DNA of 64,000 bases. Source: Pseudomonas sihuiensis. GTDB lineage: Bacteria; Pseudomonadota; Gammaproteobacteria; Pseudomonadales; Pseudomonadaceae. The first letter of the stretch is position 1. The number at the start of each line of letters is the position of its first letter. Below the pieces are notes generated by a model. That model was not told the DNA's origin. It worked only from the letters and a program-made list of their open reading frames with translations, and did no database searches. The stretch is from contig NZ_LT629797.1 in the NCBI RefSeq assembly GCF_900106015.1, positions 5,332,001 through 5,396,000 of the forward strand. Reading direction: 5' to 3'. Of the stretch, positions 134 to 10,885 are shown in pieces. The translations under genes and the position numbers were made by a program.

Positions 134-829
134 TTAATGCTTGCGTGGGGTCAGGTGGGCCAGCCAGCGCAGTTCGGCGTATTTGAACAGGCGCACCAGG
201 CCCACCGTCAGCACCAGATAGAACAGGCCGGCGGTGATGAAGGCCTCGAACGGCATGTAGTACTGCGAGCTGATGGTGCGGGCTGCACCGGTGAGGTCGA
301 TGAGCGTCACCAGCGAGGCCAGCGAAGTGGTGTGCAGCATCATGATCACCTCGTTGCTGTACTGCGGCAGCGCGCGGCGCATGGCCGAAGGCAGCAGGAT
401 GCGCCGGTAGAGCTGGGCGCGTGACATGCCCATGGCCCTGGCTGCCTCGATCTCGCCGGGCGGCGTGGCCTTGAGGCTGCCGGCCAGAATCTCCGCCGTG
501 TAGGCGCTGGTGTTGATGGCGAAGGCCAGGCAGGCGCAGAAGGTGGCGCTGGAAAAGTACGGCCACATGAAGCTGTCGCGGATGACGTCGAACTGGGCCA
601 GGCCGTAGTAGAGCAGAAATAGCTGTACCAGCATCGGCGTGCCGCGAATCACGTAGGTATAGAGCCAGGCTGGGAAGTTCACCAGCGGCGAGCGCGACAC
701 CCGCATCAGGGCCAACGGCAGAGCCAGCAGCAGGCCCAGGGCGAGGGCGATCAGCAGCAGCTCGAAGGTGACCAGCAGACCGCTGGCATACAGCGGCAGG
801 CTGGAGAGGATCAGATGGAAATCGAGCAT
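134..829 (-). CDS. Amino-acid ABC transporter permease (HisM/AotM-like)
   Basis: Inner-membrane permease of 231 residues, the usual length for polar amino-acid importers. The EAA loop reads EIEAARAMGMSRAQLYRRIL around residues 125-144, the site that contacts the ATPase. Several hydrophobic segments surround it, with an N-terminal segment of the HisMQ type. It lies 11 bases after the other permease gene and 12 bases before the M14 hydrolase gene, so the four genes form one minus-strand operon. The ATP-binding subunit is not in the window and would be expected left of position 1. Context points to basic amino acids or beta-Asp-Arg dipeptide as substrate; the sequence alone does not settle this. 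Confidence 0.92.
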   Translation of the reverse strand: MLDFHLILSSLPLYASGLLVTFELLLIALALGLLLALPLALMRVSRSPLVNFPAWLYTYVIRGTPMLVQLFLLYYGLAQFDVIRDSFMWPYFSSATFCACLAFAINTSAYTAEILAGSLKATPPGEIEAARAMGMSRAQLYRRILLPSAMRRALPQYSNEVIMMLHTTSLASLVTLIDLTGAARTISSQYYMPFEAFITAGLFYLVLTVGLVRLFKYAELRWLAHLTPRKH

Positions 830-840
830 GGACGTGATCC

Positions 841-1530
841 TCAGATTTCAGCCGTGCGAACGCCGACCGAGTAACGCTTTTCGACGGCGCGCAGGAGCAG
901 CAGCGAGACGCTGGTCAGCAGCAGGTACAGGCCCGCCACGGCAAGATAGAACGTGAAGGGTTCACGGGTGGCGTCGGCGGCGTTCTTGGCCTTGAACATC
1001 ATGTCCTGCAGGCCGACCACCGAGATCAGCGCGGTGGCCTTGGTCAGCACCAGCCAGTTGTTGGTGAAGCCGGGAATGGCGAAGCGGATCATCTGCGGCA
1101 CCAGGATGCGCAAGAACACCTGGGCGCCGCTCATGCCATAGGCTGCACCGGCCTCGGCCTGGCCCTTGGCGATGGCCATAAAGGCGCCGCGGAAGGTCTC
1201 CGACAGATAGGCGCCGAAGATGAAGCCCATGGTGAACACACCGGCGACGAAGGGGTTGATGTCGATGTAGGCGGTGTAACCCAGGCTGGGCGCGATGCGG
1301 TTCACCAGGTCCTGACCGCCATAGAAGATCAGCAGGATCAGCACCAGGTCGGGGATGCCCCGGATCAGGGTGGCGTAGGCGTCGCCCAGATTGGCCAGCC
1401 AGCGCAGTGGCGAGAGGCGCAGCGCAGCGCCGGTGAGGCCGAGCAGGATGGCCAGCGCCATCGAACACAGAGCCAGAGTCAGGGTCAGCCAGGCGCCCTC
1501 GACGATGATCGGGCCGTAGCCTTGCAGCAT
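841..1530 (-). CDS. Amino-acid ABC transporter permease (HisQ/AotQ-like)
   Basis: Second inner-membrane permease, 229 residues, pairing with the downstream permease as HisQ pairs with HisM. The EAA-type loop appears as AEAGAAYGMSGAQVFLRILV in mid-protein, and the N-terminal segment beginning MLQGYGPIIVEGAW is typical of the HisQ side. It follows the binding-protein gene by 63 bases that contain a strong hairpin. Gene order is binding protein, Q-type, M-type, hydrolase. From memory the P. aeruginosa aot operon is J-Q-O-M-P, so the hydrolase has a different position here. Confidence 0.92.
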   Translation of the reverse strand: MLQGYGPIIVEGAWLTLTLALCSMALAILLGLTGAALRLSPLRWLANLGDAYATLIRGIPDLVLILLIFYGGQDLVNRIAPSLGYTAYIDINPFVAGVFTMGFIFGAYLSETFRGAFMAIAKGQAEAGAAYGMSGAQVFLRILVPQMIRFAIPGFTNNWLVLTKATALISVVGLQDMMFKAKNAADATREPFTFYLAVAGLYLLLTSVSLLLLRAVEKRYSVGVRTAEI

Positions 1531-1593: not shown

Positions 1594-2370
1594 TTACTGG
1601 CCGTAGATGTCGTAGTCGAAGTACTTGGCCTGTACCTCGGCGTACTTGCCGTTGCTGCGAATGGCGTCGATGGCGGTGTTGAGCTTCTCGGCGGTGGCTG
1701 CGTCGCCCTTGCGCACGGCGATGCCGGCGCCGCGACCGAAGTAGCGCGGGTCGTTGAAATCAGGGCCGACCAGGGCGAAACCCTTGCCACCGTCGGTTTT
1801 CAGGAAGCCCTCGTCGATGTTCACCACATCGGCCAGCACCGCATCCACCCGGCCTGCCAGCAGGTCGAGGAAGGCTTCGTTGTTGGAGCCGTAGCGCACC
1901 ACGTTGACGCCGGCCGGGGTCAGTTCGGCAGTAGCGTAGCGATCGTAGGTGGAGGCGCGCTGCACGGCTACCTTCTTGCCCTTGAGGTCGACGCTCGGGT
2001 CCTGGATCTGACTGCCTTCCTTCATCACCAGCTTGCCGGGGGTGTGGTAGTACTTCTTGGAGAAGTCCACCGACTTCAGACGGTCTTCGGTGATCGACAT
2101 CGAGGACAGCACGGCGTCGACCTTGCGCACCTTGAGCGAGGGAATCAGGCCGTCGAACTCCTGCTCGATCCACTGGCATTTGACCTGCATCTGCGCGCAC
2201 AGCTCGTTGCCGATGTCGTAGTCGAAGCCGGCGATCTTGCCGTCGGCGGTCTTGAACGCGAAGGGCGGGTAGGCCGCCTCGATGCCGATGCGCAGCGCCG
2301 GCTCGGCGGCGACGGCGAAGGTGCCGAAGGTGGAGAGCGCCAGGGCGCCGAATAGAGCGATCTTGTTCAT
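1594..2370 (-). CDS. Periplasmic amino-acid binding protein (HisJ/AotJ-like)
   Basis: Exported solute-binding protein of 258 residues, first gene of the minus-strand ABC operon. A signal peptide ends near FAVAAEP (residues 18-24). The mature protein shows class 3 features: IGIEAAYPPFAFK near the start, GFDYDIGNELC for the ligand-binding lobe, LSSMSITEDR, and the late segment GRGAGIAVRKGD. It should bind a ligand in the periplasm and deliver it to the two permeases. The start has GGAG spaced well upstream of the ATG. The ligand is probably a basic amino acid (Arg/Orn) or beta-Asp-Arg, because the operon ends in an AotO/CphZ-like hydrolase gene and lies opposite cyanophycinase genes. Confidence 0.93.
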   Translation of the reverse strand: MNKIALFGALALSTFGTFAVAAEPALRIGIEAAYPPFAFKTADGKIAGFDYDIGNELCAQMQVKCQWIEQEFDGLIPSLKVRKVDAVLSSMSITEDRLKSVDFSKKYYHTPGKLVMKEGSQIQDPSVDLKGKKVAVQRASTYDRYATAELTPAGVNVVRYGSNNEAFLDLLAGRVDAVLADVVNIDEGFLKTDGGKGFALVGPDFNDPRYFGRGAGIAVRKGDAATAEKLNTAIDAIRSNGKYAEVQAKYFDYDIYGQ

Positions 2371-2746: not shown

Positions 2747-4510
2747 ATGAACAAACAGCGCAATCTTCGTGGCCTTCTCGCCGCGCTCCTCCTCTGCGGC
2801 AGTGCTGATCCGGTAATGGCCGATGGCAACCTCCTGGCGGTCGGCGGCATGCTGCGAGCCAGCAACAGCCTGGTCTACGAGAAACTCATCGAACTGGCGG
2901 GCGGTGCCCAGCAGGCGCGTATCGCCATCATGCCCACCGCCAGCGGCAGCCTGGGCTCCAGCAAGCGCTTCCAGGCCGAGCTCGAAGCCCTGGGCGTGCC
3001 CGCCGAGCACATCCGCATTGTCGGCATCGACCGCCACAACTATCAGGACACCATGAACGACCCTGCCGTGGTCGCGCCGCTGCGCGAGGCCAGTGCGGTC
3101 TGGTTCGTTGGTGGCGATCAGGCGCGCATCGCCCGTGCGCTGTTCAACGCCGACGGCAGCCCGTCGCTCGCCATGCAGGCCGTGCAGGCGATCTACGATA
3201 AGGGCGGCGTGGTGGCCGGTACCAGCGCCGGGGCCAGCATCCTCGGTGCGCGCATGCCCACCGCCTACGGGGTGGTCATGGACACCCTGGATTTCGGCGT
3301 GGCCACGGCCGAGGGCCGGCGCGGTACCGCCCTGCTCAGGGGCGCAGGTCTGTTCACCGCCGGCGTGATCGACCAGCACTTCGACAAGATCGAGGAAACC
3401 AGCAGCGGGCGCGCCGCGCGCATGGCCAGCTACCTGCTGGAACAGCCGGCTCCGGGCAAGGGCTTCGGTCTGGATACCAACACCGCCATGTGGATCAAGC
3501 CCAGTGGTGAGCTGGAGGTACTGGGCGAGGGCTACCTGACCATCATGGACCCTGCCGCGGCGAAGAAGAGCTTCGGGCTCTACGGCACGCGGATCGACGA
3601 CATGCGCCTGGCCATGCTCGGTCATGGTGATCGCTACGACCTGGCCTCGGGCGAGATCCGGCCGGACGCCGGCAAGCAGCTGATCGAGCCTGGCAATGAG
3701 TACCTGGTGGGCAACCGCCTGCTCACCGACCTGTCGGCCGTGTCGGCGATCAACCGAGCGGTGCTCTATGGCCTGGCCGACAATACGGCGAGCCGTCAGC
3801 TCGGGCTGATGACCCGCTACAACCCAGCCAACGGTTACCACTACGGCTATCGCTTCGAATTCAGCAAGCGGACGGACTTCGCCGCTCATAGCCGCTTCCA
3901 CGATTCGCAGACCAACTACAGCGTCAGCGACGTGCGCCTGGATATCCGCCCGGTGACCGCCGATCTGCGCGAGCCGGCCGCTGGCGCCCCGCGTGATGCC
4001 GGCAACGGTCGCCGCGGCGACGCCATTCGTGCGGTGACCTTCCGCGGCCTGATGACCCTCAACGCCGAAGGCGCCTTCGAGGCGCAGCGCCCGATAACCC
4101 GCGGCGAGCTGGCCAATGCCCTGCAGATGACCCTGGCCGCGGAGCCCAACCTCAAGGCCCTGCCGACGCTGAGCGACGTGCCGGCCGAGCATCCTCTACG
4201 CGAGCACATCGAAGTGGTGGTTTCCAACGGCTGGATGGATGGCGCCGAGCGCTTCGACGCCGAGCGGCCGGCCAGCCGCGCGGACTGGGCGCTGGCCTGC
4301 AAGACGCTGGTCGAGCGCTTCAGCGGAGCCACGTTGAGCAAGACCGTGGCGCTGCAGGACGTCGCCGGCCTCGCCGTAGCGAACGCCGAGGCTGCCGCGC
4401 AGACCGTGGCCGAAGGTTGGCTGAGCGCCAACCAGGGACGCTTCGAGCCTGCTGCGCCGGTCGCGCGCGCCGAGGTCGCCGAGACCCTGGCACGCATCAT
4501 CGGCCTCTAG
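2747..4510 (+). CDS. Exported cyanophycinase (peptidase S51) with three C-terminal SLH-like repeats
   Basis: Should hydrolyse cyanophycin (poly-Asp backbone with Arg side chains) to beta-Asp-Arg outside the cytoplasm. The start ATG at 2747 is chosen because it opens a signal peptide (MNKQRNLRGLLAALLLCG, cleavage near residue 25); the longer frame adds 18 unlikely residues. The S51 domain spans about residues 27-400: VGGDQAR (121-127), nucleophile Ser160 in AGTSAGA, His211 in DQHF. CphE-type enzymes such as the one at 7325 have the His loop as HFSERGR; here it is longer (HFDKIEETSSGR). Residues about 425-587 form three S-layer-homology-like repeats, with PITRGELANAL (449-459), DVP...ERPASRADWAL (477-516) and PVARAEVAETL (571-581). 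SLH tails are unusual in Pseudomonas and suggest envelope anchoring or polymer binding. Length 587 residues versus about 418 for CphE. Confidence 0.88.
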   Translation: MNKQRNLRGLLAALLLCGSADPVMADGNLLAVGGMLRASNSLVYEKLIELAGGAQQARIAIMPTASGSLGSSKRFQAELEALGVPAEHIRIVGIDRHNYQDTMNDPAVVAPLREASAVWFVGGDQARIARALFNADGSPSLAMQAVQAIYDKGGVVAGTSAGASILGARMPTAYGVVMDTLDFGVATAEGRRGTALLRGAGLFTAGVIDQHFDKIEETSSGRAARMASYLLEQPAPGKGFGLDTNTAMWIKPSGELEVLGEGYLTIMDPAAAKKSFGLYGTRIDDMRLAMLGHGDRYDLASGEIRPDAGKQLIEPGNEYLVGNRLLTDLSAVSAINRAVLYGLADNTASRQLGLMTRYNPANGYHYGYRFEFSKRTDFAAHSRFHDSQTNYSVSDVRLDIRPVTADLREPAAGAPRDAGNGRRGDAIRAVTFRGLMTLNAEGAFEAQRPITRGELANALQMTLAAEPNLKALPTLSDVPAEHPLREHIEVVVSNGWMDGAERFDAERPASRADWALACKTLVERFSGATLSKTVALQDVAGLAVANAEAAAQTVAEGWLSANQGRFEPAAPVARAEVAETLARIIGL

Positions 4511-4972: not shown

Positions 4973-6313
4973 ATGAAGATTCTCAAACTCAGCTGTCTCG
5001 CCCTGGCCATCGGTGCCGTGGCCTCGCAGGCTGCCGCCGCCGGTCAGCAGCAGGAAGCCAAGGGTTTCATCGAGGACAGCAGCCTGCAGCTGATCAACCG
5101 CAATTTCTACATGAACCGCGACTACCGTCATGGCGGCAGCAACAGCCAGGGCATCAACCGTGCCAAGCCGGTCAACGAACGCAACGGCTATCGCGAGGAG
5201 TGGGCACACGGTGCGCAGCTGAACTTCAGCTCGGGGTTCACCCAGGGGACCGTCGGTGTCGGCGCCGATGCCTTCGCCTACGGCGGGGTCAAGCTCGATA
5301 GCGGCCGTGGCCGGGTAGGCAACGGCCTGCTGCCGATCAGCAACAACCGCACCGCCGATGCCGAGGTGCCGGACAGCTACGGCCAGATCGGTGGTGCGGT
5401 GAAGCTGCGCGCCTCTTCCACCGAGCTGAAGTACGGCGAGATGCGCCCGACCGCACCGGTGTTCGCCACCGGCGATGCGCGCCTGCTGCCGGAGACCGCG
5501 ACCGGCTTCCAGATTTCCAGCAGCGAGTTCGACGCACTGTCCTTCGAGGCCGGCCACTTCACCTCGATCAATCGCCGCAACTCCACCAACTCCGATGACG
5601 ACCTGACCAGCGAGTACGCCGAGGTGGAGGCGCGCAGCGTCGACTTCGCAGGCCTCAGCTACGCGGTCAATGACGACCTGAGCCTGATGTTCTATGCCAG
5701 CGAGGCCAAGGATGTCTGGCGTCAGTACTTCGCCAACCTGAACTACAACATCCCGCTGGCCGATAGCCAGGCGCTGAACTTCGACCTGGTGGCGTACAAG
5801 ACCCGCGACGAAGGCGAGGCGCGTGCCGGCGAGCTGGACACCCTGACCTGGTCGCTCAAGGGCGCCTACAGCTTCGGCGCGCACAAGCTCAGCCTGGCCT
5901 ATCAGAAGGTGCGTGGCGACGAGTTCTTCGACTACATCGGCGGCGACTCCATCTGGCTGGCCAACTCGGTGCAGTACTCCGACTTCAACGCCCCCAACGA
6001 GCGCTCGGTGCAGATCCGCTACGACCTGAACATGAAGCACTACGGCGTTCCCGGCCTGACCTTCATGGCGCGCTACATCAAGGGCGACGACATCGACGGC
6101 ACCAAGGCCGATCCGAATGGCGCCTTCGCCGGCTGGGCCGGTGACGACGAGAAGCATTGGGAACGCGATCTGGAAGCGCGCTACGTGTTCCAGGAAGGCG
6201 CGGCCAAGGACCTGTCGCTGCGTCTGCGTCACGCCACTCACCGCTCCACGGCATTCGACGACGACCTCGACGAGGTGCGCCTGATCATCGAGTACCCGCT
6301 GAGCATCCTGTAA
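4973..6313 (+). CDS. OprD-family outer-membrane porin
   Basis: Outer-membrane 18-strand barrel of the OprD/OccD-OccK type, 446 residues, a normal precursor length. A signal peptide (MKILKLSCLALAIGAVASQA) is followed by the family hallmark GFIEDSSLQLINRNFYMNRDYR, with alternating barrel strands and a C-terminal aromatic-hydrophobic end (IIEYPLSIL). Members take up basic amino acids, small peptides or aromatic acids. Between two cyanophycinase genes and next to a binding protein gene, this one probably passes beta-Asp-Arg or arginine into the periplasm. A GGAG ribosome site precedes the ATG, and a strong terminator follows at 6321-6361. Confidence 0.93.
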   Translation: MKILKLSCLALAIGAVASQAAAAGQQQEAKGFIEDSSLQLINRNFYMNRDYRHGGSNSQGINRAKPVNERNGYREEWAHGAQLNFSSGFTQGTVGVGADAFAYGGVKLDSGRGRVGNGLLPISNNRTADAEVPDSYGQIGGAVKLRASSTELKYGEMRPTAPVFATGDARLLPETATGFQISSSEFDALSFEAGHFTSINRRNSTNSDDDLTSEYAEVEARSVDFAGLSYAVNDDLSLMFYASEAKDVWRQYFANLNYNIPLADSQALNFDLVAYKTRDEGEARAGELDTLTWSLKGAYSFGAHKLSLAYQKVRGDEFFDYIGGDSIWLANSVQYSDFNAPNERSVQIRYDLNMKHYGVPGLTFMARYIKGDDIDGTKADPNGAFAGWAGDDEKHWERDLEARYVFQEGAAKDLSLRLRHATHRSTAFDDDLDEVRLIIEYPLSIL

Positions 6314-6467: not shown

Positions 6468-7232
6468 ATGCTACGCATGCTGTTGTGTCTGTTCGCTGTG
6501 CTGCTCGCCCAATCGGGCACGGCAGGACCGTTGCGGGTCGCCATGGAGGGGCAGTTCCCGCCTTTCGAAGAACTCGATGCGCAGGGCAATCTGGTCGGCT
6601 TCAACGTCGACATCGCCAGGGCCCTGTGTCAGCGCATGCAGCGCGAATGCGAACTGCAGCGCTTCGCCTGGGATGACCTGATCCCGGCACTCGACGCGGG
6701 ACGCGCGGACCTGATCCTGGCGTCCATGTCGATCACCGCGGCGCGCGCCGAACGGGTGGACTTCACCGCTCGCTATGCGCAGACCCCGGCCTTCTTCTTT
6801 GCCCGCAAGGGCCATATCAATCAGATGCTGATCACCCCGCGGCGCATCGCCGGCAAGCGCGTCGGCGTGCAACAGGGCACCACCTACGAGCGCTTTCTCG
6901 AGGCCCGCTTCGCCGAGCATGTGCAGCTGCTGCGCTATCCCAGCGCCGCCCAGGCCTACCGGGCGCTCGCAGGCGGCGAGCTGGATCTGGTGCTCGACGA
7001 CGCCGTTTCCGGTTACTTCGGCTTCCTCCTGACCGAACTGGGCCGCGACTTCGAGCAGGTCGGCGGCCCCGTGGTGGCGCCGCAGTTCTTCGGCCAGGGG
7101 CAGGGCATCGCCGTGCGCAAGGGTGACGACGAGCTGCGCCAACAGCTCGATCGGGCGCTGGCCGCGATCCTTGCCGACGGCACCCACAAGCGCATCGAGA
7201 AACGCTACTTCAAACAGTTTTCCGTTTACTGA
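6468..7232 (+). CDS. Second periplasmic polar amino-acid binding protein
   Basis: Exported class 3 solute-binding protein of 254 residues with a signal peptide ending near QSGTAG (residues 15-20). Family motifs are LRVAMEGQFPPFEE, GFNVDIARALC, ILASMSITAARAERVDFT and GQGQGIAVRKGDD, paralogous to the protein at 1594-2370 but clearly divergent. The start has AGGAG seven bases upstream. No permease or ATPase genes lie beside it, so it probably docks on the Aot-like permeases of the divergent operon and widens their ligand range, for example to beta-Asp-Arg. This docking is inference from position. It sits 92 bases before the CphE-type gene. Confidence 0.9.
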   Translation: MLRMLLCLFAVLLAQSGTAGPLRVAMEGQFPPFEELDAQGNLVGFNVDIARALCQRMQRECELQRFAWDDLIPALDAGRADLILASMSITAARAERVDFTARYAQTPAFFFARKGHINQMLITPRRIAGKRVGVQQGTTYERFLEARFAEHVQLLRYPSAAQAYRALAGGELDLVLDDAVSGYFGFLLTELGRDFEQVGGPVVAPQFFGQGQGIAVRKGDDELRQQLDRALAAILADGTHKRIEKRYFKQFSVY

Positions 7233-8799: not shown

Positions 8800-9594
8800 A
8801 TGAGCACTGCAAGCAAGCCTGCTACCGCCCTGATTACCGGCGCCTCGTCCGGCATCGGCGCCACCTACGCCGAGCGTCTGGCTCGGCGTGGTCACGACCT
8901 CCTGCTGGTGGCGCGTGATGCCCAGCGCCTGCAGGCCCTGGCAGAGCGCCTGGGCGGCGAATATGGCGTCGCCGTCGAGGTGCTGCCGGCCGACCTGACG
9001 CAGAAGGCCGATATCCTCAAGGTGGCGCAACGCCTGCGTGAGGATGCCGGTATCGGCCTGCTGGTAAACAACGCGGGTGTGGCGATGAACGGCAAGCTGG
9101 CCGACGCCGATCTGGAGCAGGCCGAGGCGATGATCCAGCTCAACGTGGTGGCACTGACCCACCTGGCGGCTGCGGCTGCAGCCAATTTCTCTGCGGCGGG
9201 GCGTGGCGGCATCATCAACCTCGGCTCGGTGGTGGCGCTGGCGCCGGAGATGTTCAACGCCGTGTACAGCGCGACCAAGGCCTACGTGCTGAGCCTGACC
9301 CAGACCCTGGCCGGTGAGTTGCGGGGTTCGGGCGTGCAGTTGCAGGCGGTGCTGCCGGGCGTGACCCGCACCGAGATCTGGGAGCGCAGCGGCACCGACG
9401 CCTCGGCGCTGCCGCCGTCGATGATCATGGAAGTGGGCGAGATGGTCGATGCGGCGCTGGCCGGTTTCGATCAGGGCGAACTGGTGACCATACCCTCGCT
9501 GCCGGATGCAGCCGACTGGGATGCCTTCGTCGCCGCCCGCGCCGCGCTGGGGCCGAACCTGTCGCACAGCCAGGCGGCGGCGCGCTACAAGTGA
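8800..9594 (+). CDS. Short-chain dehydrogenase/reductase (DltE-like SDR)
   Basis: NAD(P)-dependent oxidoreductase of 264 residues, substrate unknown. The Rossmann nucleotide-binding motif is TGASSGIG (about residues 13-20), with NNAG following near 86-89. The catalytic triad is visible as Ser in NLGSVV and Tyr/Lys in YSATK. It is cytoplasmic, with no signal. An A/G-rich ribosome site (GGAG) lies upstream of the ATG. The promoter carries two palindromes resembling a TetR-controlled operator, and the convergent tetR-like gene follows, so a small inducible oxidoreductase/regulator unit is likely. Confidence 0.88.
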   Translation: MSTASKPATALITGASSGIGATYAERLARRGHDLLLVARDAQRLQALAERLGGEYGVAVEVLPADLTQKADILKVAQRLREDAGIGLLVNNAGVAMNGKLADADLEQAEAMIQLNVVALTHLAAAAAANFSAAGRGGIINLGSVVALAPEMFNAVYSATKAYVLSLTQTLAGELRGSGVQLQAVLPGVTRTEIWERSGTDASALPPSMIMEVGEMVDAALAGFDQGELVTIPSLPDAADWDAFVAARAALGPNLSHSQAAARYK

Positions 9595-9639
9595 GTCCGA
9601 AGCAGTCTAGTTATTGGCTATGTGCACGTGAGTGACGTT

Positions 9640-9686
9640 GTAGGAGCGGCTTCAACCGTGAATTTCGCGGATAAATCCGCTCCTAC
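9640..9686. repeat. Palindromic intergenic repeat (GTAGGAGCGG family)
   Basis: Arms GTAGGAGCGG (9640-9649) and CCGCTCCTAC (9677-9686) enclose the usual CGTGAATTTCGCGGATAAAT-type core. Related arms occur at 38886-38950 and at about 55483-55506. It lies between the convergent SDR and tetR genes, so it may form a hairpin in both 3' ends. Confidence 0.7.
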
Positions 9687-9719
9687 GGGTGCACAGTTAA
9701 CTCAGGCATAGCCTTGTCA

Positions 9720-10286
9720 TTACGCGTCCTGCGTCTGCTCGATCAGCAGGCGACGGGTCGTTTTCAGCAGGCGGTCGGACAGCTCCGGGTCCTTGACGCT
9801 GCGCGACAGCAGCAGGGCGCCGACCATGCTCGAGAGCAGCAATACGCTCTGCTCGGCGGCATCATCTCCGCCGAGGTTGTCCTCGATCATGGCCAGACGG
9901 TCACGCACCAGGGCGTCGGTGGTTTCGCTGGCCTCGCCACGTTGACCCAGCTCGGCGGACATGGTCGGCAGCGGGCAGCCACTGCCGGGGTTGGCGCGAT
10001 GCGCGCTGGACAGGTAGCTGGCGATAAAGCGCGGCAGCGGTGCCTCGGCATCCTTGGCCAGCGCCTCGGTGCTGCGGGAAAGTTCCTCCACCGCATGGCG
10101 CAGGGCGTTTTCCACCAGATCGTCCTTGGACTTGAAGTGGGCATAGAAACCGCCGTGGGTCAGGCCCAGTGCCTTCATCAGCGGCTGCAGGCCGGTGGCG
10201 CCGACGCCATCGCGGCGAAAGCGCAGGGCCGCCTCCTCGATGATGCGTTGGTGGGTCTTGGCCTTGTGGTCTTCCGAATAGCGCAT
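9720..10286 (-). CDS. TetR/AcrR-family transcriptional regulator
   Basis: DNA-binding repressor of 188 residues. The N-terminal HTH is visible: RIIEEAALRFRRDGVGATGL followed by GLTHGGFYAHFKSKDDLVENAL (about residues 14-62), with the tyrosine/phenylalanine signature YAHF of the recognition helix. The C-terminal ligand domain contains SGCPLPTMSAELG, a motif seen in TetR members that regulate efflux or aldehyde/oxidoreductase genes. Its probable targets are the palindromes at 8713-8757 and 10901-10942, which share ATTATGGTC. The inducer is unknown. Confidence 0.88.
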   Translation of the reverse strand: MRYSEDHKAKTHQRIIEEAALRFRRDGVGATGLQPLMKALGLTHGGFYAHFKSKDDLVENALRHAVEELSRSTEALAKDAEAPLPRFIASYLSSAHRANPGSGCPLPTMSAELGQRGEASETTDALVRDRLAMIEDNLGGDDAAEQSVLLLSSMVGALLLSRSVKDPELSDRLLKTTRRLLIEQTQDA

Positions 10287-10315
10287 GGGCTTTCTCGTCT
10301 ATCAGATGCTGGCTG

Positions 10316-10885
10316 TCATCTTACACCTGCATCGCCGTTCTGGCGCGGCGCGTTCATGTCGAGAATCAGACAGGTGGTGGAGGCGACGGCGTAGAGGCGC
10401 TCGTCGACGTCGTACAGTCGACCTTCGGCCAGCGCGGTGGAGCGGCCGACATGGATGATGCGGCCTTCGGCGCGTACCGGACCGGCTTCACTGCGCAGCG
10501 CGCGGATGTAGCTCACCCGCAGGTCCGCGGTGGTGTAGCCCTGGCCCGTTTTGAGCAGGGTATGCACGGCGCAACCCATGCAGGAGTCGAGGAGTGTGGC
10601 GATGTAGCCGCCATGCACGCTGCCCAGCGGGTTGTAGTGGCGCTGATCGGGCGTGCCCTGGAAGACGAACAGGCCGCTGGCCCATTGCACCGGGGTGAAG
10701 TCGAGCACCGCGTTGATCGGCGGGGAGGGCAGGTCGCCGCGGCCGATGCCGTCGAAGAAATCCATCGGCGTCATGGCGGCCACCTCCGCCAGGCTGAGGG
10801 TGCCCGGGGCTGCGAGTTGATTGCGAATGGCCTGTTCCTCGGCAATCCAGGTGGCGAGGCGGGCGTCTCGGGATAAGGCGGTCAT
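10316..10885 (-). CDS. PaaI-type hotdog-fold acyl-CoA thioesterase
   Basis: Predicted 189-residue cytoplasmic thioesterase. The PaaI/4HBT core is in the second half: NPLGSVHGGYIATLLDSCMGCAV (about residues 85-107), where HGG plus the following Asp carry the catalytic features, then YTTADLRVSYIRAL. The N-terminal 60 residues are an extension found in PaaI-domain proteins of this type. It lies 29 bases upstream of the tetR start on the same strand, so the two may be co-transcribed, and it is divergent from the exporter gene at 10981. Confidence 0.82.
   Translation of the reverse strand: MTALSRDARLATWIAEEQAIRNQLAAPGTLSLAEVAAMTPMDFFDGIGRGDLPSPPINAVLDFTPVQWASGLFVFQGTPDQRHYNPLGSVHGGYIATLLDSCMGCAVHTLLKTGQGYTTADLRVSYIRALRSEAGPVRAEGRIIHVGRSTALAEGRLYDVDERLYAVASTTCLILDMNAPRQNGDAGVR

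Follow-up and report, generated by a model that had tools for sequence, protein, structure and literature searches.

We find that a single open reading frame of Pseudomonas sihuiensis joins a cyanophycinase-family (S51) domain to a C-terminal tail of three S-layer homology (SLH) repeats, and that this fusion is real. The gene lies in a window of 64,000 nucleotides, by which we mean the whole stretch of DNA that was analysed; its features and those of its neighbours are collected in Table 1. We tentatively read the protein as a secreted S51 enzyme for the scavenging of cyanophycin, perhaps with a moved catalytic acid, which carries its SLH trimer as a non-canonical retention module. The computed basis of this reading is the fold, the domain order, the locus, the absence of a cyanophycin synthetase match in the Pseudomonas carriers and the constraint on the tail among close relatives.

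Table 1. Features of the fusion protein, its locus and the LysM-tailed relatives. Positions are those of the window unless a locus is named.
Feature	Position	Strand	Basis or remark
S51-SLH fusion protein, 587 aa	2747..4510	+	open reading frame, profile, AlphaFold
Sec-type leader, residues 1-26	2747..2824	+	by-eye reading: basic start, hydrophobic core, VMA-DG end
S51 cyanophycinase-fold domain, residues 27-300	2825..3646	+	profile, fold
Ser160, nucleophile position (= Ser132 of Synechocystis CphB)	3224..3226	+	43/43 rows; 3en0 alignment
His211, catalytic His position	3377..3379	+	43/43 rows
Four-residue insert after His motif, residues 214-217 KIEE, then Thr218	3386..3397	+	alignment
Thr244, position of catalytic Glu in known cyanophycinases	3476..3478	+	alignments
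Middle beta-rich region, residues 301-408	3647..3970	+	AlphaFold model
SLH repeat 1, about residues 411-464, ITRGE	3977..4138	+	profile, alignment, model
SLH repeat 2, about residues 475-527, SRADW, Gly at Gly29 position	4169..4327	+	alignment, model
SLH repeat 3, about residues 536-587, ARAEV	4352..4507	+	alignment, model
Amino-acid ABC permease perm2	134..829	-	named from sequence and context
Amino-acid ABC permease perm1	841..1530	-	named from sequence and context; position conserved in some carriers
SBP1, lysine/arginine/ornithine-type substrate-binding protein	1594..2370	-	TIGR01096 267.6 bits, cut-off 256.35; divergent from fusion
OprD-family porin	4973..6313	+	PF03573 512.4 bits
SBP2, second basic-amino-acid substrate-binding protein	6468..7232	+	TIGR01096 210.2 bits, below 256.35
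CphE-type extracellular cyanophycinase, 418 aa	7325..8581	+	TIGR02069 128.2 bits, cut-off 126.6
S51-LysM proteins	L062:3521-4954, L069:4930-6369, L075:7959-9401, L076:7998-9437		

The fusion was assigned to the S51 family (PF03575) by a profile score over the cut-off and by its S51 fold, and the tail to SLH (PF00395) by a profile match and a three-repeat, six-helix fold. The AlphaFold model is confident, and its tail matches the SLH trimers of Sap and SpaA in structure; searched alone against the PDB sequences, the tail reached only E 0.1 at best, to Sap. The preliminary description, made from the sequence alone, had proposed an S51 domain followed by three SLH repeats, and the Pfam-type profile search, the AlphaFold model and the structural match to SLH trimers all agree with it. 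That the SLH match arose by chance or as an artefact is ruled out by the relatives, the family profile and the fold. In the leader region pLDDT is <50 at residues 1-6 and 14-24, and by eye no lipobox is seen at Cys17. The middle region aligns weakly, up to residue 402, with the C-terminal part of CphE. Against TIGR02069, the cyanophycinase equivalog, the fusion scores 103.3 bits, below the cut-off of 126.6, hence we call it cyanophycinase-like only; sequence sources label its relatives cyanophycinase.

Among the Pseudomonas genomes sampled, 10 of 199 hold the fusion, and the SLH profile exceeds its cut-off in 9 of 199, seven of these matches being the fusion and two being frames of 199 and 170 aa. 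It should be noted that the fusion tails of the window genome, G063 and G177 were too weak for the E 0.01 threshold of the SLH genome scan, so that counting by SLH gives too low a figure for the fusion. Both counts bear out the earlier remark that SLH modules are rare in Pseudomonas. The other SLH-like matches in the genus (L025, L031 and L032; frames of 199, 170 and 796 aa, the last below the cut-off) come from genomes with no match to the fusion (P0001). The protein searches for relatives, in each of which 8000 candidates were scored, and a scan of genome contigs do away with the idea that the architecture is peculiar to one Pseudomonas genome: among the matches listed by the contig scan, P. 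guguanensis, P. alcaliphila, P. guryensis and Vogesella urethralis are named carriers, and more distant ones are MAGs of Deinococcales and Planctomycetota. The architecture thus has named members in at least three phyla (Pseudomonas/Vogesella, Deinococcota and Planctomycetota), where the clade names used for our alignment A1 rest on the rows that carry organism names.

To place these proteins we used a tree of 58 rows over the S51 and middle regions, from which the tail, the insert and the columns around position 244 were left out. The S51-SLH proteins form one clade of 26 rows (support 94/99) and 25 of them match the SLH profile; the remaining row, L061, is cut off by the end of its contig, and its available part gives no SLH match. 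Outside the clade SLH was matched in none of the 31 rows scanned out of 32, CphE among them, at E <=0.01. Within the clade the planctomycete-type rows are set apart, while the Deinococcota-type rows group with those having Thr at position 244 (100/99), and the latter are themselves one clade (100/98). As the root was placed at the midpoint, we infer the direction of change, namely one old fusion of which Pseudomonas and Vogesella would hold a derived form. A C-terminal LysM is carried by three of the 31 scanned rows outside the clade (L062, L069 and L075, from Clostridia and Fusibacter), and also by L076, which is not in the tree; hence modules of wall type were acquired at the C-terminus of such S51 enzymes on at least two occasions.

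The open-licence literature yielded no description of a cyanophycinase or cyanophycin together with SLH or an S-layer, nor of a cyanophycinase with LysM, subscription papers being mostly outside the search; a search of PMC2605481 for S51 or cyanophycin gave no match. Within that literature the architecture is, as first supposed, undescribed.

The active site is kept in part. Ser160 and His211, together with Gln125, Asp209, Gln210, Arg222 and Arg225, are identical in all 43 rows of A1. Aligned to 3en0 and 7uqv, the fusion shows Thr244 at the position of the catalytic Glu, for which the CphB equivalent, counted from Ser132, is Glu201. At the Arg178 position of CphB, an arginine that we take, along with Arg180 and Arg183, to have a role in substrate binding, the fusion has Ser220, and the Deinococcota-type rows are non-Arg there too. 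The catalytic Glu of CphEal is Glu251 (PMC3235067). The S51 domain had been described as intact; this stands for Ser160 and His211, but the Glu has given way to Thr244 and an insert has brought in Glu217.

These two changes go together throughout. Position 244 is Thr in 28 rows of A1 and Glu in 15; the four-residue insert occurs in 28/28 Thr rows and 0/15 Glu rows. Within the insert, Glu217, six residues after His211, is found in all Thr rows, with a gap in all Glu rows, and Glu216 in 27 of the 28. Over residues 25-408, columns 31, 217 and 244 alone are fixed differently between the two groups. A wider count covered 95 proteins, near copies included, of which 8 were left out for want of a readable His motif: of the remaining 87, 47 combine the insert with Thr, and the other 40 lack both and retain Glu (read by pattern in 34 and from the printed stretch in 6). 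In the fetched loci the non-insert S51 frames read Glu, 15 that the pattern had missed being read from printed stretches, and so does every CphE frame found; L058 stops short of the position-244 site and gives no reading there. A Glu gained where a Glu was lost suggests that the catalytic acid may have moved. The tree has a single change of the Thr244/Glu217 pair, which leaves the pairing without an independent replicate, and hence we offer the moved acid as a hypothesis. In the fusion model the block 211-220 has a pLDDT of 75 only. PDB 7uqv, the nearest solved S51 fold, bears the title pseudo-CphB even though all three of its motifs (Ser, His and Glu) can be aligned; the presence of the motifs is thus not enough to decide on activity.

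The fusion is a paralogue of the free CphE of the same locus, which is encoded 2.8 kb downstream, is 28% identical to it, has Ser168/His221/Glu248 and shows no SLH match (Pfam). Just outside the window, after perm2, locus L035 continues with a CphZ-type hydrolase, an ABC ATPase and an RpiR-type regulator, the last two both below the NCBIfam equivalog cut-offs. The hydrolase is of the AstE/AspA family (PF24827) and matches 8ein, which we take to be CphZ (PDB name: succinylglutamate desuccinylase), at E 1.2e-78. Hydrolases annotated as AstE/AspA are reported to be beta-Asp-Arg/Lys-specific dipeptidases in proteobacterial cyanophycin clusters, and a cyanophycin-scavenging locus is described as a cyanophycinase, a dipeptidase and a transporter without CphA (PMC10206079). 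The fusion locus has this composition: cyanophycinase, dipeptidase and transporter genes, and no CphA. None of the ten Pseudomonas carriers has a match to the cyanophycin synthetase profile TIGR02068 at E <=1e-100, the window genome holding a partial match of 204 bits, far below the cut-off of 850. Cyanophycin of the cell's own making was considered as the substrate in Pseudomonas and rejected, there being no full CphA in the ten carriers. The planctomycete genomes G201 and G202 have CphA, so the protein may serve own stores there.

The RpiR-type gene, the CphZ-type gene and SBP1 stand beside the fusion in 10/10 Pseudomonas carriers, and CphE, OprD and SBP2 are present in 7/10. G049, G131 and G184 are without these latter three in the 17-18 kb fetched, and have no second fusion-like (P0001) match at 1e-10. 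The fusion alone matches TIGR02069 (E <=0.001) in G131, G184 and Vogesella (G199); in G049 there is one further match of 38 bits. A Thr form that is the sole cyanophycinase candidate, and in Pseudomonas stands beside a dipeptide hydrolase, argues that this form works. Taking this with the residues identical in 43/43 rows, we consider it likely that the S51 activity is kept. In several carriers the permeases and the ATPase are away from the fusion, the fetched locus L053 has no CphZ match, and in the Vogesella locus L055 the 8 kb on each side show no more than an RpiR-like gene besides the fusion. The Pseudomonas loci L040, L041 and L042 have the RpiR-type and CphZ-type genes, SBP1 and the fusion, with no CphE, OprD or SBP2 in the fetched stretch. 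The divergent intergenic region of the window contains an inverted repeat, TTTGACAT/ATGTCAAA, at 2530-2537 and 2573-2580. Its 7-base halves are both found in 2 of 13 other loci, both near relatives, and TTTGACAT...ATGTCAAA is a possible operator for the RpiR-type regulator.

On our tentative reading the fusion would be exported by Sec and probably on across the outer membrane; a type II secretin scores over its cut-off in the window genome, so export beyond the outer membrane is predicted to be possible. The S51 domain would still cleave cyanophycin or a close analogue by means of Ser160-His211, and the acid of the inserted loop, Glu217, may now do what the catalytic Glu does in other cyanophycinases. 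The beta-Asp-Arg dipeptides would then be taken up by way of OprD and the ABC transporter, and the CphZ-type hydrolase would split them. We see the SLH trimer as a putative retention module of non-canonical specificity, with a ligand other than pyruvylated ManNAc, which would hold the enzyme at a wall-type surface, either the producer's own or that of polymer-containing cyanobacterial remains; the LysM tails on S51 relatives raise the likelihood of own-surface retention. Counted against this reading are the TIGR02069 score under the cut-off, the single origin of the Thr244/Glu217 pairing, Ser220 at the Arg178 position, the variable pI of the tail, its faster evolution relative to S51 and the trimming of repeat 3 in some Thr rows.

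SLH trimers bind pyruvylated ManNAc via Trp13, Gly29 and Arg43 contributed by three repeats, and TRAE/Arg43 also matters for the folding of the trimer (PMC6081394). A TRAE-type Arg43 is present in all three repeats of the fusion (R452, R511 and R574). In our own alignment, Trp13 is found in none of the three repeats of the window protein and Gly29 in one, repeat 2. Across the Thr rows Gly29 occurs in repeat 2 in 8/28 and in no other repeat, and in 0/15 Glu rows. A Trp before the motif is seen for repeat 1 in 7/28 Thr rows, for repeat 2 in 1/28 Thr and 2/15 Glu rows, and for repeat 3 in none. Further, repeat 3 is mostly lost ahead of its last helix in 6/28 Thr rows, so the full trimer is not always needed.

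The tail is nonetheless under constraint in close relatives. We calculated omega with our own NG86 script for 18 sequences, L049 having been dropped as a copy of L037; this gave 153 pairs, of which 127 were usable and 26 were left out since dS was undefined or zero. In the 15 closest pairs (S51 dN <=0.06) the omega of the tail was 0.07-0.40, and <=0.18 in 14 of them, while that of S51 was 0.00-0.13. The tail exceeded S51 in 14/15 of these pairs, with a median ratio of 1.8, and in 126/127 overall, and it rose to as much as 0.94 in pairs far apart, whose dS approaches saturation. A decaying tail was also considered and is disfavoured by the low omega in close pairs. Searches for a pyruvyl transferase (PF04230) gave 0 matches at E <=1 in the window genome, the same search matching in 10/14 genomes as a control. 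Among the other Pseudomonas carriers the transferase is present in 3/9 and absent from 6/9, and it is also found in Vogesella, a Deinococcales genome and one of two planctomycete genomes. As the pocket residues are mostly lost and the tail is still constrained, wall anchoring of the canonical SLH type, brought up in the preliminary description as a possible surface anchor, is unlikely, and it is likely that the tail keeps a different role.

What that role might be can be read in other ways. The tail may dock on the substrate side and bind the cyanophycin granule or cyanobacterial wall debris, not the producer's surface, which we hold to be unlikely. The SLH tail is kept across the envelope types of Proteobacteria, Deinococcota and Planctomycetota, hosts that share the substrate, and a ligand for SLH may be present on the prey wall even where the Pseudomonas host is without PF04230, because cyanobacterial SLH proteins bind pyruvylated polymers (PMC10628300). 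However, the mostly missing Trp13 and Gly29 weaken binding to a pyruvylated prey wall too; the pI of the tail, 5.1 in the window protein and 9.6 in Vogesella (range 4.8-9.6 over the six tails computed), speaks against a simple charge interaction with cyanophycin, and the LysM tails of Firmicutes S51 proteins fit own-wall anchoring equally.

A purely structural tail, which would serve to stabilise or oligomerise the enzyme without any ligand, seems rather unlikely as well. It would agree with the loss of ligand residues while fold residues are kept, TRAE being important for trimer folding (PMC6081394), and with the trimmed repeat 3 and the higher omega of the tail relative to S51, but that omega is still low in close pairs, and 31/31 scanned S51 rows outside the clade, CphE included, have no SLH match. 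It is a doubtful proposal that the acid moved to the inserted loop after the His and that the SLH trimer, having lost its wall sugar as ligand, docks on the polymer or on cyanobacterial prey remains in the manner of a carbohydrate-binding module. We find it improbable that the fusion is a pseudoenzyme which captures cyanophycin for CphE to cut: Thr244 replaces the catalytic Glu and a Glu-bearing CphE adjoins the fusion in 7/10 Pseudomonas carriers, but Ser160 and His211 are kept in every row of A1 and the fusion is the sole TIGR02069 match in Vogesella and, beside a CphZ-type gene, in G131 and G184. Quite improbable is a canonical anchor on the producer's pyruvylated wall polymer, as the transferase is absent from the window genome and six of the nine other carriers and Trp13 and Gly29 are largely missing from the window protein, despite the three TRAE-type arginines and the PF04230 matches elsewhere.

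Compared with known systems, the fusion shares with CphE/CphEal of Pseudomonas (PMC3235067) the S51 fold, a leader, Ser and His and a cyanophycin locus, whereas these enzymes have the Glu (251 in CphEal, 248 in the window CphE) and no SLH tail. Synechocystis CphB (3en0, 7uqw) and Pseudobacteroides pseudo-CphB (7uqv) are likewise without a tail, and the fusion differs from them by Thr244 at the Glu201 equivalent and Ser220 at the Arg178 equivalent (numbers counted from Ser132). Unlike the SLH trimers of Bacillus Sap and Paenibacillus SpaA (3pyw, 6bt4, 6cwc and others), that of the fusion mostly lacks the Trp13 and Gly29 pocket residues, sits C-terminal to a hydrolase and belongs to a Gram-negative host. 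The S51-SLH proteins of Deinococcota and Planctomycetota have the same domain order and fall in the one clade with the fusion (94/99), but keep the Glu and have no insert (15/15 Glu rows). The S51-LysM proteins of Clostridia and Fusibacter carry a wall-type module at the same C-terminal place, of LysM and not SLH kind, with the Glu kept, and L062, L069 and L075 are in another part of the tree.

With its acid swap and its pocketless SLH trimer, this architecture, new to the open-licence literature searched and with a function that we infer, is more than an odd fusion. It presents a candidate for a natural, clade-wide swap of the catalytic acid, and as structures have been solved for this serine hydrolase family, relocation within a triad becomes testable. 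An SLH trimer without the usual ligand pocket, in a host where no ligand pathway was detected, may probe the range of ligands of the SLH fold. For the cyanophycin field the fusion is a second candidate type of secreted enzyme, the sole one found in some genomes, and tails of wall type, whether SLH or LysM, are seen repeatedly among S51 enzymes.

Other S51 arrangements were met on the way. Two Bacillaceae proteins of 834 and 858 aa (L063:7899-10403 and L067:7881-10457) have two tandem S51 stretches, and Rugamonas rivuli has a tandem pair of S51 frames (L090:7743-9134 and 9210-10457). In a planctomycete MAG an S51 frame (L060:8353-10224) lies beside the fusion, and the genome has two further TIGR02069 matches.
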